Positions 3,801 to 34,908 of a DNA stretch of 53,396 bases are shown here, piece after piece (within the stretch, counting starts at the first letter, position 1; the number at the start of each line of letters is the position of its first letter). Under the pieces are notes generated by a model. It made no database searches and had not been told where the DNA came from. It worked only from the letters and a program-made list of their open reading frames with translations. The DNA comes from Verrucomicrobiota bacterium (lineage in GTDB: Bacteria > Verrucomicrobiota > Verrucomicrobiia > Limisphaerales > UBA1100), in contig JAOLZA010000010.1 of assembly GCA_028343615.1 (NCBI GenBank), positions 1 to 53,396 on the forward strand, read 5' to 3'. A program made the translations under genes and the position numbers.

Positions 3801-4036
3801 TCATCACACAAGTTTCGGATGGTTAAGTCCTTGGAGGGGAAACGCAGATAAAGTTCTGTTTCAAGATGCCCATAGTGAATCATGCGAGAACCCATGCCCG
3901 CTCCTACCAATGTAATACGATCACCTTTCTTTAATGAAAGACTTGCAGGAGCCGCCTCCATCTTGGGCACATTAACGATCAGGATAAGGGGCCAAATTAT
4001 GAACAAACAAAATCGGATTAATTTGTGGGGAAACAT
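878..4036 (-). CDS. PVC-type GDSL / dehydrogenase propeller / HEAT / cytochrome c fusion protein
   Basis: A 1052-residue exported protein with four parts. A signal peptide (about residues 1-28) is followed by a GDSL/SGNH-hydrolase-like domain (about 35-270, with GAGMGSRMIHYGHLE and a later DGALLNGLGYRKLA segment). Next comes a glucose/sorbosone-dehydrogenase-type beta-propeller (about 375-740), the PVC-type membrane-bound dehydrogenase domain common in Verrucomicrobiota and Planctomycetota. A HEAT-like helical stretch (about 750-890) precedes a C-terminal cytochrome c domain with CATCH haem binding and a plausible distal Met in GQVPMTPFEAL. The family is thought to act in the periplasm on carbohydrates or sulfated polysaccharides; the substrate is unknown. 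It stands alone, with an AT-rich 5' region. Confidence 0.85.
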   Translation of the reverse strand: MFPHKLIRFCLFIIWPLILIVNVPKMEAAPASLSLKKGDRITLVGAGMGSRMIHYGHLETELYLRFPSKDLTIRNLCDEGNTPGFRPHPGRGQGGQYAFPGAQQLISQKLKAGSGPNGHFETSDQWLTRLKTDVIIAFFGFNSSFDGVGELDRFKKELDAFLKHTLAQKYNGKSAPRLALVSPTAVQAIKGVTDGVQQNTNLILYTEAMRAVARENNVLFVDAFSPSNQWYSDGKAHTVDGALLNGLGYRKLASLLVDSLFQEENPSGNLRSAVHKAVMDKNFYWQNDFKIPNGVHVYGRRYNPFGPKNYPFELKKTREMTEIRDQAIWATLKGKGFDVKAADAKTSKLPAVQSNYRPGGKNGNVNYNPGEVTQTKIQVAEGYKIELFADEGRFPDLANPVQMAFDNKGRLWVATMASYPHYRIGDPHPKDKLIIFEDTNNDGKADKQINFADDLHIPIGFEISHDGVYVSQSGSLVRYKDTNGDDRYDIREVVLSGFDDHDTHHAISAFCADPSGAFIMCEGVFLHSNVESVFGPQRGTNGGFFRYSPQRKTIIRYSQFSIPNPWGVAFDNYGQDLFLHTSGTSLSWMLPGSVKARYGANLKAPNIITSNNVRPTSGVEFVSSRHFPDEVQGDVIINNNIGFLGAKQHKIIDKDPGFTTEFRHDLFISKDLNFRPTDLEFAPDGSLYVVDWHNALIGHMQHNARDPNRDHAHGRVYRITYPSRPLVKPAKIAGAAIAQLLDNLKLHEYRSRYRTRRELRGRDADTVVKATRDWVKNLPKDADERLKLEALWVTWGAGQTDAALLKQLLGSGDHRIRSAAVRVLRFNLKQVKNHKELLAKAATDSHGRVRMEATVAASFLGKKDGLEVLAAAEPKGIVRTYKQTMDFAKGVLENTPVPPAVHRSRLQPPAHLSKADAKLYVLGEEVYNRDAHCATCHQPNGKGLPESGFPPLAGTSWSNGDPERLIKLTLKGLLGPIEVQGKKYPGQVPMTPFEALLNDEEIAAVLTFVRNSYGNEASVISPAQVSRVRSSVKDMRGLYNPADLLKEHPHNK

Positions 4037-4202
4037 ATCTATGGGTATTTAATTTTTTAATCACCTAGTCAAAGCTCAATTTTATTCCGTGCTGAACAGT
4101 GAATCAATGTATTAGAGAATTAAATTTTATGTAGGACAGTAAATGTCTCATGTCTCGTGAGAGGCTTAGCGCAGAGTTTGAACACGAACCAAGGAGAACA
4201 AA

Positions 4203-4418
4203 ATGTACAATGAACTGAACGAACAACTAGAGCTGGGTTTTGATCGCAACACCATTCGCAAGGATCTGCCGAGCAGCCGGCGGCGGGTGGCACGAGCGGA
4301 TTGGTGGTTTGATCAGATCCGCAAGATGATCAATGCAGAAGATGCTCCGCCCGTGCCGCGGCCGATACAAGGTCGGCTGGAGTTTCCTCCCACGCGTACG
4401 GTGAGTTTTCCGGTGTAA
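4203..4418 (+). CDS. Small conserved-looking protein, function unknown
   Basis: A 71-residue protein preceded by a clear AAGGAG ribosome-binding site 6 nt before the ATG, which is stronger than most in this window and supports expression. The sequence is charged and soluble. A central WWFDQIRKM segment and a proline-rich C-terminus (PPVPRPIQGRLEFPP) are its only distinctive features. There is no signal peptide, membrane segment or metal-binding cluster. It lies just upstream of cimA in the same direction and is divergent from the giant cytochrome gene. I do not recognise a characterised family; WWFDQxR-type short proteins recur in Verrucomicrobiota as I recall, so I take it as real. Confidence 0.7.
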   Translation: MYNELNEQLELGFDRNTIRKDLPSSRRRVARADWWFDQIRKMINAEDAPPVPRPIQGRLEFPPTRTVSFPV

Positions 4419-4474
4419 TCGGCTGGAAACAACCCGTTTGGGGTTTGCAAGCAAAGTGCCTTTGGCGTAGAACT

Positions 4475-4497
4475 CGCCTCCCGCTTTGCGGGAGGCG
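4475..4497 (+). promoter_or_regulatory. Strong hairpin abutting the cimA start codon
   Basis: A perfect 10-bp GC-rich stem (CGCCTCCCGC / GCGGGAGGCG) with a TTT loop ends at the base before the cimA ATG (4498); a T4474-A4498 pair could extend it into the start codon. The 3' arm contains GGGAGG, the only purine-rich Shine-Dalgarno-like sequence, though only 2 nt from the ATG. It could control translation or be the tail hairpin of the upstream gene. No T-run follows, so it is not an ordinary terminator. Confidence 0.6.
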
Positions 4498-6060
4498 ATG
4501 AGCAAGGGACTGATTGAAATCTACGATACGACACTGCGTGATGGCACGCAGGGTGAAGGCGTGAGTTTCTCGGTAGCGGACAAACTCCGTGTGGCCGAGC
4601 GACTTGATGCTTTTGGCGTGCATTACGTGGAGGGCGGCTGGCCGGGGAGTAATCCGAAGGATATCGAGTTTTTTAAGCAAGCGGCCAAACGCAAATGGAA
4701 GCACGCGCAGATTGCGGCCTTTGGCTCAACACGCCGCAAAAAAGTAAAGGCGAAGGACGATCCGCAGGTGAAACTGCTTATCGATGCCAAAACGCCGGTG
4801 GTGACCATATTTGGCAAAACCTGGCTGCTGCACGTGAAAGAAGTGCTGCGTACCACGCCCGACGAAAACATCGCGATGATTGCTGATACCATTGCGTTCC
4901 TGAAAAAGAAGGGGCGCAAGGTTATCTACGATGCCGAGCACGCGCTGGATGGATTTAAGGATGATCCGGAATACGCAATGGCCACGTGGAAGGCAGCGGA
5001 GGCGGCTGGGGCTGATTTTGTGGTCCTATGCGATACCAACGGTGGCACGTTGCCCAGCGAAGTGGCGGCCATCACCGCTGAGGCTCGCGCGATGCTGGCG
5101 TGCCCCATCGGTATCCACACACACAATGATATCGGCCTCGGCGTGGCCAACGCGCTGGCGGCGGTGGAGCAGGGCGCCACGCAGGTGCAAGGCACGATCA
5201 ACGGTTACGGCGAACGCACCGGTAATTGTAATCTCACCAGTGCCATTCCAAATATTGCATTGAAGATGGGGCGGCGTTCCATTTCCAAAGCGCGTTTAAA
5301 AAAACTGCGTGAAGTTTCGCGCTTCGTGGATGAAGTGGCCAATCTCGTTCCCGACCGTCATCAACCGTGGGTGGGCGGAACCGCCTTCGCACACAAAGGG
5401 GGTATGCATGTAAACGCCGTGCAAAAAGTGGCGTCTAGTTTTGAACATACCAATCCTGAAGTGGTCGGCAACGCGCGCCGTATCCTCGTGAGCGATCTCG
5501 CCGGCCGCAGCAACATTGTGATGAAGGCGCAGGAGATGGGTATTCGCATCGCCAATGATGCGCCGGAGTTGAAGGGCATCCTCGCGCGCGTAAAGGAGCA
5601 GGAACATCTCGGCTATGATTACGAGGGCGCAGAAGGCTCGCTGGCGTTGCTCATCCGCAAAGCGCTCGGCCGCGTGGAACCGGCGTTTGATTTGGAAGCT
5701 TATCATGTCTCCATGCGTGGTGATGCGGCTAATCACGTTTGCGAAGCCACCGTGAAAGTGCGTGTGGGTGATAAAAGTGCTCACACCGTGGCCAATGGAG
5801 ACGGTCCCGTGAATGCCCTAGACCAAGCACTGCGTAATGCCTTGCGTGGATTTTATCCGGTGCTCAAGCAAGTGCGCCTTACGGATTATAAAGTGAGGAT
5901 ACTGAACAGCACCACCGGCACGGCTGCCAAAACCCGCGTGCTCATTGAATCCACCGATGGCAAAGACCGCTGGTACACCGTGGGTGTAAACGAAAACATC
6001 ATCGAAGCCAGTCTCCAAGCGCTGCTCGACAGCATCGAATTCCGGCTGTTGAAGAAATAG
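4498..6060 (+). CDS. cimA: Citramalate synthase
   Basis: Condenses acetyl-CoA with pyruvate to (R)-citramalate, the first step of the threonine-independent route to 2-oxobutyrate and isoleucine. The N-terminus IEIYDTTLRDGTQGEG is the HMGL/DRE-TIM barrel signature with the catalytic DTTLRDG motif. Metal-binding HTHND occurs in the barrel (IGIHTHNDIGLG), and GNGYGERTGN-like INGYGERTGN follows. The C-terminal third (about residues 390-520) matches the LeuA-type allosteric dimer domain, which binds the feedback inhibitor (isoleucine for CimA). At about 520 residues it has the length of the CimA branch rather than LeuA. I start at ATG 4498; TTG 4486 lies in the loop of the hairpin. valS follows after 4 nt. 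Confidence 0.93.
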   Translation: MSKGLIEIYDTTLRDGTQGEGVSFSVADKLRVAERLDAFGVHYVEGGWPGSNPKDIEFFKQAAKRKWKHAQIAAFGSTRRKKVKAKDDPQVKLLIDAKTPVVTIFGKTWLLHVKEVLRTTPDENIAMIADTIAFLKKKGRKVIYDAEHALDGFKDDPEYAMATWKAAEAAGADFVVLCDTNGGTLPSEVAAITAEARAMLACPIGIHTHNDIGLGVANALAAVEQGATQVQGTINGYGERTGNCNLTSAIPNIALKMGRRSISKARLKKLREVSRFVDEVANLVPDRHQPWVGGTAFAHKGGMHVNAVQKVASSFEHTNPEVVGNARRILVSDLAGRSNIVMKAQEMGIRIANDAPELKGILARVKEQEHLGYDYEGAEGSLALLIRKALGRVEPAFDLEAYHVSMRGDAANHVCEATVKVRVGDKSAHTVANGDGPVNALDQALRNALRGFYPVLKQVRLTDYKVRILNSTTGTAAKTRVLIESTDGKDRWYTVGVNENIIEASLQALLDSIEFRLLKK

Positions 6061-31873: not shown

Positions 31874-32341
31874 ATGAAAATTGTCCTTCTCGAACCAGAA
31901 ATCCCGCCTAATACCGGCAACGTGGCGCGGTTATGTGCTGCCACGCATTCGGTGTTGCACTTGATCGGGCCACTAGGGTTTCGGTTGGATGATTCGCAGC
32001 TCAAGCGGGCGGGAATGGATTATTGGGAGCAAGTGGATTGGACGTTCTGGGAAAACTGGCCGGCCTTCGCAGAGAGTTTGTCTGCGGATATGCGGTTTTG
32101 GTTCGTGGAGCAGGGCGGTGGGCGGCGTTATGACTCAGTTGAGTTCGGGCCGGAAGATTATCTTGTGTTCGGCCGCGAATCAACGGGTCTCCCGAAGGCG
32201 TTGCTCGCGGAAAATCCCGAGCGATGCCTCGAAATTCCTGTGCAAAACCCGGAAGCGCGGTCGCTGAATTTGTCAAACTGTGTGGCATTGGTGCTGTACG
32301 AAGCGTTGCGTCAGCAGGGGTTTGGCGAAGATTCGGATTGA
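31874..32341 (+). CDS. trmL: tRNA (cytidine(34)-2'-O)-methyltransferase
   Basis: SPOUT methyltransferase modifying the wobble base of tRNA-Leu isoacceptors. MKIVLLEPEIPPNTGNVARLC is the opening (PPNTGN signature), LVFGRESTGLPKALL the SAM-binding loop and ARSLNLSNCVALVLYEALR the C-terminal knot. 155 residues, standard. An A/G-rich TAAGGAG lies further upstream. It stands alone before the riboswitch. Confidence 0.93.
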   Translation: MKIVLLEPEIPPNTGNVARLCAATHSVLHLIGPLGFRLDDSQLKRAGMDYWEQVDWTFWENWPAFAESLSADMRFWFVEQGGGRRYDSVEFGPEDYLVFGRESTGLPKALLAENPERCLEIPVQNPEARSLNLSNCVALVLYEALRQQGFGEDSD

Positions 32342-32393
32342 CCTCCTCTCTTCATCCTTTATTCTCCCCTTAGCCCCTTCAAGTTTGCGGGGG

Positions 32394-32506
32394 CACTCAT
32401 TGCGAGTGGCGGAGGGACTGGCCCGTTGATGTCACGGCAACCGATCGGAGCGACGACTTCGGTGGCAGGTGCCAAATCCAGCCGACGCGAGTCGGGAAAA
32501 TGAGTT
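32394..32506 (+). promoter_or_regulatory. SAM-I (S-box) riboswitch aptamer
   Basis: The conserved SAM-I core is present in order: P1 ACTCATT (32395-32401) pairing with AATGAGT (32499-32505); the kink-turn strand GGAGGGACTGGCCC; then CGGCAACC; a P3 arm (ccgatcggagcgacgacttcgg region); GGTGCCAAATCCAGC; and P4 CCGAC GCGA GTCGG. These match S-box consensus elements by eye. SAM binding normally stabilises P1 and lets the downstream terminator form. It stands before the ThrC-like gene, an unusual target. Confidence 0.9.
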
Positions 32507-32522
32507 GGCACGTGGTCGTTTG

Positions 32523-32552
32523 CCCGCTCAAAGAAATGAGCGGGATTTTTTT
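32523..32552 (+). terminator. Riboswitch expression-platform terminator
   Basis: CCCGCTCA (32523-32530), loop AAGAAA, TGAGCGGG (32537-32544), then A and seven T (32546-32552). The TGAG of the P1 3' strand can pair with the CTCA of the terminator 5' arm, so P1 and the terminator compete with an antiterminator. This predicts OFF at high SAM. The pairing is short (4-5 bp). Confidence 0.85.
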
Positions 32553-32579
32553 ATGCCAAAAATAAAACAACAGGGATTT

Positions 32580-33818
32580 ATGAAGGCGCTGCAATGTCGC
32601 GAGTGTGGGCGGGAGTATCCGCTCGAGGCGCGGCATGTGTGTGAATTTGATTTTGGGCCGTTGGAAGTGGCGTACGATTATGCCAAAATCAAAACTAAGC
32701 TTACGCGCGCGGCGATTGCGAAACGACCGCAAAGTATGTGGCGCTATCGCGAGCTGCTGCCTGTGGCGCAAGAGCCGACGGTGGGTGTTGAAGTGGGCTT
32801 TACGCCGCTGATCAAGGCTGATCGTCTTGCAAAGCGGTTGGGTATTCGCGAGCTTTGGATTAAAAATGACGCGGTGAATTATCCCACGTTGTCCTTCAAA
32901 GACCGCGTGGTGAGCGTGGCGTTGAGCCGCGCGCGGGAGTTGGGCTACGAGACGGTGGCCTGCGCTTCAACGGGCAATCTGGCTAACAGCGTGGCGGCGA
33001 ATGCGGCGGCTTCGGGGATGAAAGCGTTTGTGTTTATCCCACACGATTTAGAAAAGGGGAAGGTCGTCAACTCACTCGTTTACGATGCGAATGTGATTTC
33101 CATCAAGGGGCACTACGACGAAGTGAACCGCTTGTGCGCGGAGATTGCCGGCAAATATAATTGGGCGTTTGTGAATGTGAATATGCGGCCGTATTATGCG
33201 GAGGGTTCAAAGAGCCAAGGGTTTGAAATTCTGGAGCAACTCGGCTGGAAAATTCCGCGTCATACTGTGGTGCCGATGGCATCGGGCTCGTTGCTCACGA
33301 AAATTCACAAGAGCTATCAAGAATGTATCAAGGTGGGTTTGGTGAGGAAATCCAACTATAGCGTGCACGGCGCGCAAGCGACCGGGTGTTCACCTATTAG
33401 TACGGCGTATCGCGAAGGGCAGGATTTTTTTAAGCCGGTGAAGCCCGATACTATCGCGAAGAGTTTGGCGATCGGCACGCCGGCGGATGGCTTTTATGCG
33501 CTCAAAGTCTTTAAGGAAACCTGTGGCGCATCGGATGATGTGACCGATGAAGAAATTCGCGAGGGCATCAAGCTGTTAGCCGAGACCGAAGGCATCTTTG
33601 CCGAAACCGCTGGCGGCGTCACCGTGGGCGTCGCCAAGAAACTCATTGCCAGTAGCGCTATCCCCGCCGATGATTCCGCCGTGCTGTGTATCACCGGCAA
33701 CGGGCTGAAGACGCTTGATGCCGTGGAAAATCATGCGGGTAGCGCCCGCGAAATTAGCCCCAGCCTGCGCGAGTTTGATGCGCTTCTGGACCGTAATAAA
33801 ACGTTAACCGAAAAATAA
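32580..33818 (+). CDS. thrC: Threonine-synthase-like PLP enzyme (candidate SAM-regulated sulfur-pathway enzyme)
   Basis: A 412-residue fold-type II PLP protein of the threonine synthase family. The N-terminus is a zinc-ribbon-like segment, CRECGREYPLEARHVC, with Asp where a fourth Cys is expected (CEFD). The PLP-Lys motif is YPTLSFKDR. ACASTGNLANSVAANAA is the phosphate-binding loop, VPMASGSLLTKIHK the glycine loop, and ITGNGLKTLDAV the C-terminal signature. Threonine synthase acts on O-phosphohomoserine. Here the SAM-I riboswitch, the CysO-like gene 3 nt after the stop and the NIL gene suggest a homocysteine-forming sulfur transfer instead. The start ATG 32580 has AGGGA upstream; ATG 32553 abuts the terminator T-run. 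Authentic threonine synthase cannot be excluded. Confidence 0.85.
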   Translation: MKALQCRECGREYPLEARHVCEFDFGPLEVAYDYAKIKTKLTRAAIAKRPQSMWRYRELLPVAQEPTVGVEVGFTPLIKADRLAKRLGIRELWIKNDAVNYPTLSFKDRVVSVALSRARELGYETVACASTGNLANSVAANAAASGMKAFVFIPHDLEKGKVVNSLVYDANVISIKGHYDEVNRLCAEIAGKYNWAFVNVNMRPYYAEGSKSQGFEILEQLGWKIPRHTVVPMASGSLLTKIHKSYQECIKVGLVRKSNYSVHGAQATGCSPISTAYREGQDFFKPVKPDTIAKSLAIGTPADGFYALKVFKETCGASDDVTDEEIREGIKLLAETEGIFAETAGGVTVGVAKKLIASSAIPADDSAVLCITGNGLKTLDAVENHAGSAREISPSLREFDALLDRNKTLTEK

Positions 33819-33821
33819 TTT

Positions 33822-34097
33822 ATGCCAGTTGAAATTCGCATTCCCACCCCCCTGCGCAAACTTACCCACGACGAGGAAACCGTGGAGACCAGCGCTGAAA
33901 CTGTTGGCGCCGCCATCACTGATTTGGAGGCCCGCTACCCCGGCATTCAGGAACGCCTGCTTGATGATGAAGGCCAAGTGCGCCGCTTCGTAAACGTGTA
34001 CGTCAACGAAGAGGATATCCGCTTCTTGCAGGAAAAGGACACTCCCCTCAAAGATGGCGACGAAGTCAGCATTATCCCCGCCATCGCCGGCGGTTGA
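33822..34097 (+). CDS. CysO-like ThiS/MoaD-family sulfur-carrier protein
   Basis: A 91-residue ubiquitin-fold protein ending IIPAIAGG, the C-terminal Gly-Gly that is adenylated and converted to a thiocarboxylate. From memory it resembles Mycobacterium CysO closely: IPTPLRKLT near the start, then DLEARYPGIQERLLDD, RRFVNVYVNEEDIRF and DGDEVSIIPAIAGG. CysO delivers sulfur to CysM acting on O-phosphoserine, and a JAMM protease (Mec) then releases cysteine. The gene follows the ThrC-like stop by 3 nt and precedes the NIL gene by 4 nt. No E1-like activator or JAMM protease lies in this window. Confidence 0.9.
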   Translation: MPVEIRIPTPLRKLTHDEETVETSAETVGAAITDLEARYPGIQERLLDDEGQVRRFVNVYVNEEDIRFLQEKDTPLKDGDEVSIIPAIAGG

Positions 34098-34101
34098 GCT
34101 T

Positions 34102-34446
34102 ATGCCCGTAAAGAAAAAAAAGACGGCGAAGAAAAAGACGGCGAAGAAAAAGACGGCGAAGAAAAAGACGGCGAAGAAAAAGGCGGTGAAAAAGAAGCCG
34201 GCACAGAGTCGCTTGCGTTTGTGGTTGATGTATCCGCCCAAGCATATTACTTCGCCGGTGATTTATGAATTGGTGACCCGCTTTGGTTTGCTCGTGAATT
34301 TGCGTCAGGCTGAGGTGCGTGATGAGATTGGTATTGTCTGCCTCGAGCTCGAAGGTCCGCGTGATGAATTGAAAAAGGCCACCCGCTGGCTCGAGCGAAA
34401 AGACATCAAAGTGGAGCCGGTTGAATTTAACGTCATTGAAAGTTAA
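34102..34446 (+). CDS. NIL-domain protein with histone-H1-like KTAKK tail
   Basis: A 114-residue protein: N-terminal about 35 residues are lysine/alanine-rich with four KTAKK repeats, then a NIL domain (about 36-114: LRLWLMYPPKHITSPVIY, ELVTRFGLLVNLRQAEV, GIVCLELEGPRDELKKATRWLERKD). NIL domains occur in the methionine-transporter ATPase MetN and in NIL-ferredoxins of the archaeal homocysteine pathway, so this fits methionine or sulfur metabolism. Start ATG 34102 is 4 nt after the CysO-like stop. The basic tail could bind nucleic acid or acidic proteins and is unexpected on a NIL domain. Confidence 0.82.
   Translation: MPVKKKKTAKKKTAKKKTAKKKTAKKKAVKKKPAQSRLRLWLMYPPKHITSPVIYELVTRFGLLVNLRQAEVRDEIGIVCLELEGPRDELKKATRWLERKDIKVEPVEFNVIES
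34117..34188 (+). repeat. 15-bp tandem repeat coding the KTAKK tail
   Basis: Four near-perfect copies of AAGAAAAAGACGGCG and one diverged copy (AAGAAAAAGGCGGTG). In-frame, so slippage would change tail length by five residues. Confidence 0.85.
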
Positions 34447-34455
34447 GGTGCGGCG

Positions 34456-34908
34456 ATGGCGGAGGCGTTTAAATTTGATTGGGACGTTCCTTCGGAAAGC
34501 ATTGCCGAAGTGAGGCGGCGTACACTATATCCCTTCAAATCATCTGGCCAGGAAACGGATGCCGAGATGAGGGAGAACTCCACTACCGTTTTTGGTGCAG
34601 TCTCGCAAGCGGGCGAACCGGTCGGCTGCATTGCGGTACTCGATGAGCCCAACCACGATTGTGCATTGCGCGTCCGTTGGTTAGGCGTGGATGATGCCGT
34701 GCGCGGTCGGGGTCTTGGCGCGCGATTGGTGCAAGCCACTCAAGTGTACGCAGCCACGCGTCAACTTGGTTTGTGGGCGGATGTGCGGGTGAAAGCAATT
34801 CCGGTCTACGAGCGATTGGAATTCGAGCCGTTTGGTGATTTTTTTGAGCTGCCGAACATTGGCCGACATCGCGTGATGCGTTGGTGGCCGGCGGGACTCC
34901 AGCCTTGA
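34456..34908 (+). CDS. GNAT-family N-acetyltransferase
   Basis: A 150-residue acetyltransferase. Motif A LGVDDAVRGRGLGARLVQAT carries the Arg/Gln-x-x-Gly-x-Gly/Ala acetyl-CoA site. ADVRVKAIPVYERLEFEPFGDFFEL is the usual motif B region of the ElaA-like branch, which acts on amino acids or amines. It is co-directional and 9 nt after the NIL gene, so it may be read with the sulfur operon, though its substrate is unknown. Confidence 0.85.
   Translation: MAEAFKFDWDVPSESIAEVRRRTLYPFKSSGQETDAEMRENSTTVFGAVSQAGEPVGCIAVLDEPNHDCALRVRWLGVDDAVRGRGLGARLVQATQVYAATRQLGLWADVRVKAIPVYERLEFEPFGDFFELPNIGRHRVMRWWPAGLQP

Follow-up and report, generated by a model that had tools for sequence, protein, structure and literature searches.

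A transcription-terminating SAM-I riboswitch very probably controls a MetM/MetO-type homocysteine-synthesis operon in Verrucomicrobiota

The system closest to the locus described here is that of Streptomyces albulus, in which the homocysteine synthase MetM, a relative of threonine synthase, has a SAM riboswitch upstream of it (Hasebe et al. 2024, doi 10.1128/aem.01247-24, as reported in PMC12172450). The title of that study, as cited in PMC12172450, names the O-phosphohomoserine route, and, to the extent that PMC12172450 conveys the work, enzymes of the MetM type and the SAM riboswitch that goes with them are already described in Streptomyces. In Nonomuraea gerenzanensis L144 we found a SAM-I riboswitch at 3819-3960 (68.7 bits), followed by a gene for a MetM-type enzyme at 4001-5209 and one for a 91-aa carrier ending in VAGG at 5234-5509. 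The enzyme studied by Hasebe and colleagues reportedly uses O-phosphohomoserine together with a thiocarboxylated carrier protein, MetO. A sulfur carrier is also used in Wolinella, where a ThiS-like protein is the sulfur donor for homocysteine and the acceptor is a MetY-type enzyme that uses acetylhomoserine. This protein-thiocarboxylate route to methionine, involving HcyS with MetY, is cited in PMC5764234.

The window, by which we mean the whole stretch of 53,396 nucleotides that was analyzed, belongs to the Verrucomicrobiota assembly GCA_028343615.1 (2.53 Mb in 129 contigs, 59% complete). A SAM-I riboswitch is followed in it by metM, by a metO gene whose product has a C-terminal GG, by a NIL-domain gene and by a GNAT gene, with these features:

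32338..32365, + strand: candidate sigma-70-like promoter, TTGACC-16-TATTCT, 28 nt 5′ of the aptamer (from a consensus scan)
32394..32506, + strand: SAM-I (S-box) riboswitch aptamer (RF00162 match; precedes metM in relatives; compensatory changes in P1-P4)
32499..32506, + strand: 3′ side of helix P1 (AATGAGTT), which doubles as antiterminator strand (sequence; same pairing in relatives)
32523..32552, + strand: intrinsic terminator with an 8-bp stem, a 6-nt loop, and A then 7 T (sequence; terminators in orthologous leaders)
32553..33818, + strand: metM-type gene encoding 421 aa with a threonine-synthase fold; ATG 32580 is an alternative start (PF00291, TIGR00260, clade, clade-specific residues)
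33822..34097, + strand: metO-type sulfur carrier, 91 aa, ThiS/MoaD fold, ending IAGG (PF02597, 76.7 bits; SAMP1/MoaD models)
34102..34446, + strand: stand-alone protein with a NIL domain and an N-terminus rich in Lys/Ala (PF09383; closest to the MetN C2 domain among solved structures)
34456..34908, + strand: GNAT acetyltransferase (PF13508/PF00583)

As far as the Streptomyces system is covered by PMC12172450, the locus shares with it a MetM-type enzyme, an adjoining sulfur carrier and an upstream SAM riboswitch, and the whole order recurs in Nonomuraea. It differs in the addition of the NIL-domain gene after metO, and in an expression platform that has a clear terminator with a U-run, whereas none was seen in Nonomuraea. 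With the Wolinella route it would share the use of a ThiS-like carrier to donate sulfur for homocysteine, but the acceptor there is of MetY type and here is the ThrC-fold MetM. Set against SAM-I riboswitches of family RF00162, the complete P1-P4 aptamer, the terminator and the antiterminator present no structural difference; what differs is the controlled gene, a ThrC homologue instead of a classical met gene. New here are the breadth of the arrangement in Verrucomicrobiota, an antiterminator whose strands co-vary, and a third gene that is conserved and whose product resembles the methionine-binding domain of MetN. The best reading of the locus is SAM-OFF transcriptional control of an operon that would make homocysteine from O-phosphohomoserine.

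The initial annotation had recognized an S-box at 32394 by its consensus, and running the RF00162 covariance model confirmed it: the match at 32394-32506 on the + strand scores 75.2 bits (E 6.5e-16) against a gathering score of 44.4 bits and covers the whole model (1-108), and the span given earlier, 32394-32552, is precisely the aptamer plus the terminator. This is the only SAM-I copy in the window's 2.53 Mb assembly, which is 59% complete. Across 28 orthologous aptamers, the P1-P4 helices of the four-way junction show both-sided (compensatory) changes at 13 of 30 pairs. The minimum free energy of the leader is not significant when taken alone (z -1.27), so the covariance model and the comparative evidence carry the case for the riboswitch, which is predicted to bind SAM. 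The promoter candidate matches 9 of 12 consensus positions, where shuffles average 0.1.

The terminator hairpin, CCCGCTCA-AAGAAA-TGAGCGGG (32523-32544), has 8 bp, 6 of them G-C, and is followed by one A and a run of 7 T (32546-32552) that abuts ATG 32553, a codon in the reading frame of the ORF that runs to 33818, just as had been claimed from the sequence. Stem-loops with a T-run are present in 72 of 79 orthologous leaders by an energy-based count, which was used instead of an automatic terminator finder that missed bulged stems. In the window, TGAGT at 32501-32505 can pair with GCTCA at 32526-32530, which is the shortest type of antiterminator, with 5 bp including one G-U; in relatives the corresponding complementarity between P1 (3′ strand) and the terminator (5′ arm) usually extends over 5-11 bp. 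The two strands change together between subgroups (GATGAGC with GCTCATC; GATGAGAAG with CTTCTCATC), and the pairing score is 18.4 for strands of the same locus as compared with 15.8 (sd 0.33) for swapped partners, with none of 300 swaps as high, in a permutation test that is inflated by kinship among the sequences. Judged from its sequence, the arrangement of P1, terminator and antiterminator is the standard SAM-OFF layout, and from the conserved terminator and antiterminator we infer that the switch would be OFF at high SAM. Two observations in the window count against this best explanation: constrained folding of its leader favors the terminated form (-57.7 as compared with -53.8 kcal/mol), and its antiterminator is short, with the one G-U among its five pairs.

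No ribosome-binding site is evident ahead of ATG 32553, and the metM ORF stays open in the 5′ direction into the aptamer (GTG 32469). The in-frame ATG 32580 is preceded by AGGGA and may be the start of metM. At locus L072 of a close relative (genome G005), a frame change lies between the two candidate metM ATGs and a short upstream frame ends in a TGA overlapping the second, a hint that the second ATG could be the real start there.

The main comparison set consisted of 58 genomes, made up of the one containing the window and those of its relatives. A metM gene is found in 41 of these, and SAM-I lies directly upstream, 44-255 nt away, in 40; in the remaining one (G019) metM is cut at a contig start. 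SAM-I was found in none of the 17 genomes of this set that lack metM, and the co-occurrence gives a Fisher p of 9e-14, in a test that is weakened by kinship of the sequences. With a covariance model built here, the aptamer precedes metM at 77 of 80 named Verrucomicrobiota metM loci; it was not found before metM at L097, L114 and L129, the last of which is at a contig edge. None of 19 further loci sampled for ThrC paralogues gave a riboswitch match. In a phylum-wide sample, metM is present in 12 of 289 genomes and the riboswitch in 9 of those 12. In genomes G065, G093 and G114, two of which are just 0.9 Mb, metM is 64-68% identical and no SAM-I was found in the genome.

Other Verrucomicrobiota use the same switch ahead of other enzymes. 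The first long ORF behind SAM-I is of MetY type in 11 of 15 matches (two of these calls were confirmed against TIGR01326, the others rest on evident similarity) and is MetX in one. Since SAM-I precedes metM, metY or metX, the same switch would govern the homocysteine step, whichever enzyme carries it out.

The metM product, a PLP enzyme (PF00291) of the threonine-synthase type, has a zinc-ribbon-like segment at its N-terminus. It could in principle be the organism's true threonine synthase, controlled by SAM to tune the branch point between threonine and methionine, and its fold and nearest solved structures are those of threonine synthases. It passes the cut-off of the thrC model TIGR00260 (285.7 bits as compared with 167.1), as does the Nonomuraea MetM-type protein. 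On the threonine-synthase model NF006050 the window protein scores 280.2 bits, under the cut-off of 303, whereas relatives carry two further ThrC-type paralogues, of which the zinc-ribbon one scores 533. The window genome contains fragments of both, one adjoining aspartokinase. In a maximum-likelihood tree whose MetM-type reference is the Nonomuraea protein, 34 metM proteins, from the window, Verrucomicrobiota and Nonomuraea, lie on one side of a 100/100 branch, and all 22 ThrC-type paralogues, several of them on long branches, lie on the opposite side. These paralogues were drawn from related genomes and also from Haladaptatus, Chlorohelix, Bosea and Azospirillum plasmids. The window protein thus groups with none of the ThrC paralogues in the tree, and of the two threonine-synthase models it passes the cut-off of TIGR00260 but not that of NF006050. 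It is 53% identical to the Nonomuraea protein and 25-34% identical to the compared paralogues, and 43 clade-specific positions separate the MetM clade from the latter. These comparisons support assigning 32553..33818 to the MetM family rather than to ordinary threonine synthases. Because these genomes have separate ThrC paralogues without a riboswitch, and with metO following metM in a clade that excludes every ThrC tested, we consider a true threonine synthase under SAM control, which the initial annotation had raised with the plant enzyme as a contrast, to be very unlikely.

A second alternative takes the adjoining sulfur carrier as its starting point. In actinobacteria, CysM and CysO form a pair of a PLP fold type II enzyme and a sulfur carrier, and the locus could likewise encode a cysteine-synthase-like enzyme fed by its carrier under SAM control. 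The CysM model scores just 35.2 bits on the window protein against a cut-off of 413, its clade-mate is of MetM type, and the riboswitch class senses SAM and not cysteine, so that we give this explanation virtually no credence. An enzyme making both threonine and homocysteine from O-phosphohomoserine would need only the same substrate and fold, and Microcystis ThrC, which shares 51.6% identity with S. albulus MetM, has threonine synthase activity (PMC12172450); its bifunctionality has been suggested and is not settled (PMC12172450). The presence of other ThrC paralogues speaks against a bifunctional enzyme in our genomes, as does the consideration that control by SAM only would starve the cell of threonine while methionine is ample, and we regard it as improbable.

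The preferred assignment, to homocysteine synthesis, is consistent with what the genomes lack. Full-length MetX is encoded in 2 of the 41 metM genomes as compared with 9 of the 17 others (p 9e-5, again weakened by kinship), and neither MetA nor DUF39 proteins were found in any of the 58. The suggestion that the S-box marked this ThrC homologue as a methionine-side enzyme has therefore held up, given the MetM clade, the adjoining metO, the near-absence of MetX and the absence of MetA, and it is further backed by the replacement of metM with metY or metX behind the same riboswitch in other Verrucomicrobiota. Two counts run against the best explanation. A MetY/MetB-family enzyme is also present in 5 of the 41 metM genomes, where PF01053 matches, which occur in all genomes and are mostly weak distant relatives, were counted only if E was below 1e-80; and homoserine kinase exceeds the TIGR00191 cut-off in only 5 of the 58. 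Some relatives (G021, G022, G023, G048, G051 and others) have neither metM, MetX, MetA nor DUF39.

The C-terminal GG is retained in 112 of 115 metO-type copies, and metO and the NIL-domain gene are both downstream of metM at 72 of the 80 loci. ThiF proteins, the potential activators of MetO, are encoded in 57 of the 58 genomes, with just a weak match in the window's incomplete assembly. The one inspected in relatives is a separately encoded ThiF-rhodanese fusion, and it is probably this protein that would thiocarboxylate MetO.

At low SAM, pairing between the 3′ strand of P1 and the terminator's 5′ arm would let RNA polymerase read through, and metM, metO and the NIL-domain gene would be expressed. 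When SAM is plentiful, P1 would close, the terminator would form and transcription would halt ahead of the first ATG. MetM would draw O-phosphohomoserine from the threonine branch and combine it with sulfur supplied by the thiocarboxylate at the C-terminus of MetO, giving homocysteine, from which methionine and then SAM would be made. In this way the RNA would close an end-product feedback loop. The MetM route would then be the usual methionine route in a large order of uncultured Verrucomicrobiota, wired to SAM as in actinobacteria. Automatic annotation mistakes MetM for threonine synthase, and a thrC label on metM genes leads to mispredicted methionine auxotrophy.

The conserved NIL-domain gene may encode a third component of this pathway, a candidate that can be tested. 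Its profile finds the C2 domain of E. coli MetN in the PDB (E 5.6e-9), the structure predicted for its product (pLDDT 86.5) matches MetNI entries at a probability of 1.00, and N28 of the NIL core, a residue kept by at least 90% of members, aligns with MetN N295, which is required for L-Met binding (PMC12357092). The likeness to MetN C2/NIL thus extends to sequence, predicted fold and the conserved Asn; the difference is that the protein here stands alone in a biosynthetic operon, with no ABC-transporter part. Its N-terminus is a Lys/Ala-rich repeated stretch, KKKTAKKKTAKKK. The likeness and the conserved Asn make it a reasonable idea that the protein may be a stand-alone methionine sensor for MetM/MetO. 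A tentative and rather doubtful extension is that, as a methionine sensor or a sulfur-transfer partner, it might regulate MetM/MetO at the protein level, so that the operon would be feedback-controlled twice, by SAM acting on the RNA and by methionine acting on the enzyme. The GNAT gene probably belongs to the operon as well, its adjacency being retained in close relatives only.

Several loci depart from the common order in smaller ways. The genes between metM and metO at L078, L092 and L106 were rejected as parts of the pathway, as by eye they resemble toxin-antitoxin or unrelated small genes. Genome G007 carries a second SAM-I aptamer (L151:2490-2603, - strand, 71.4 bits by RF00162); the ORF behind it resembles, by eye, a MoxR-type AAA ATPase and is not an obvious methionine gene. 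At L077, L080 and L137 (also at L022, L024 and L033), two metO-type carriers stand in tandem after metM, both ending in GG.
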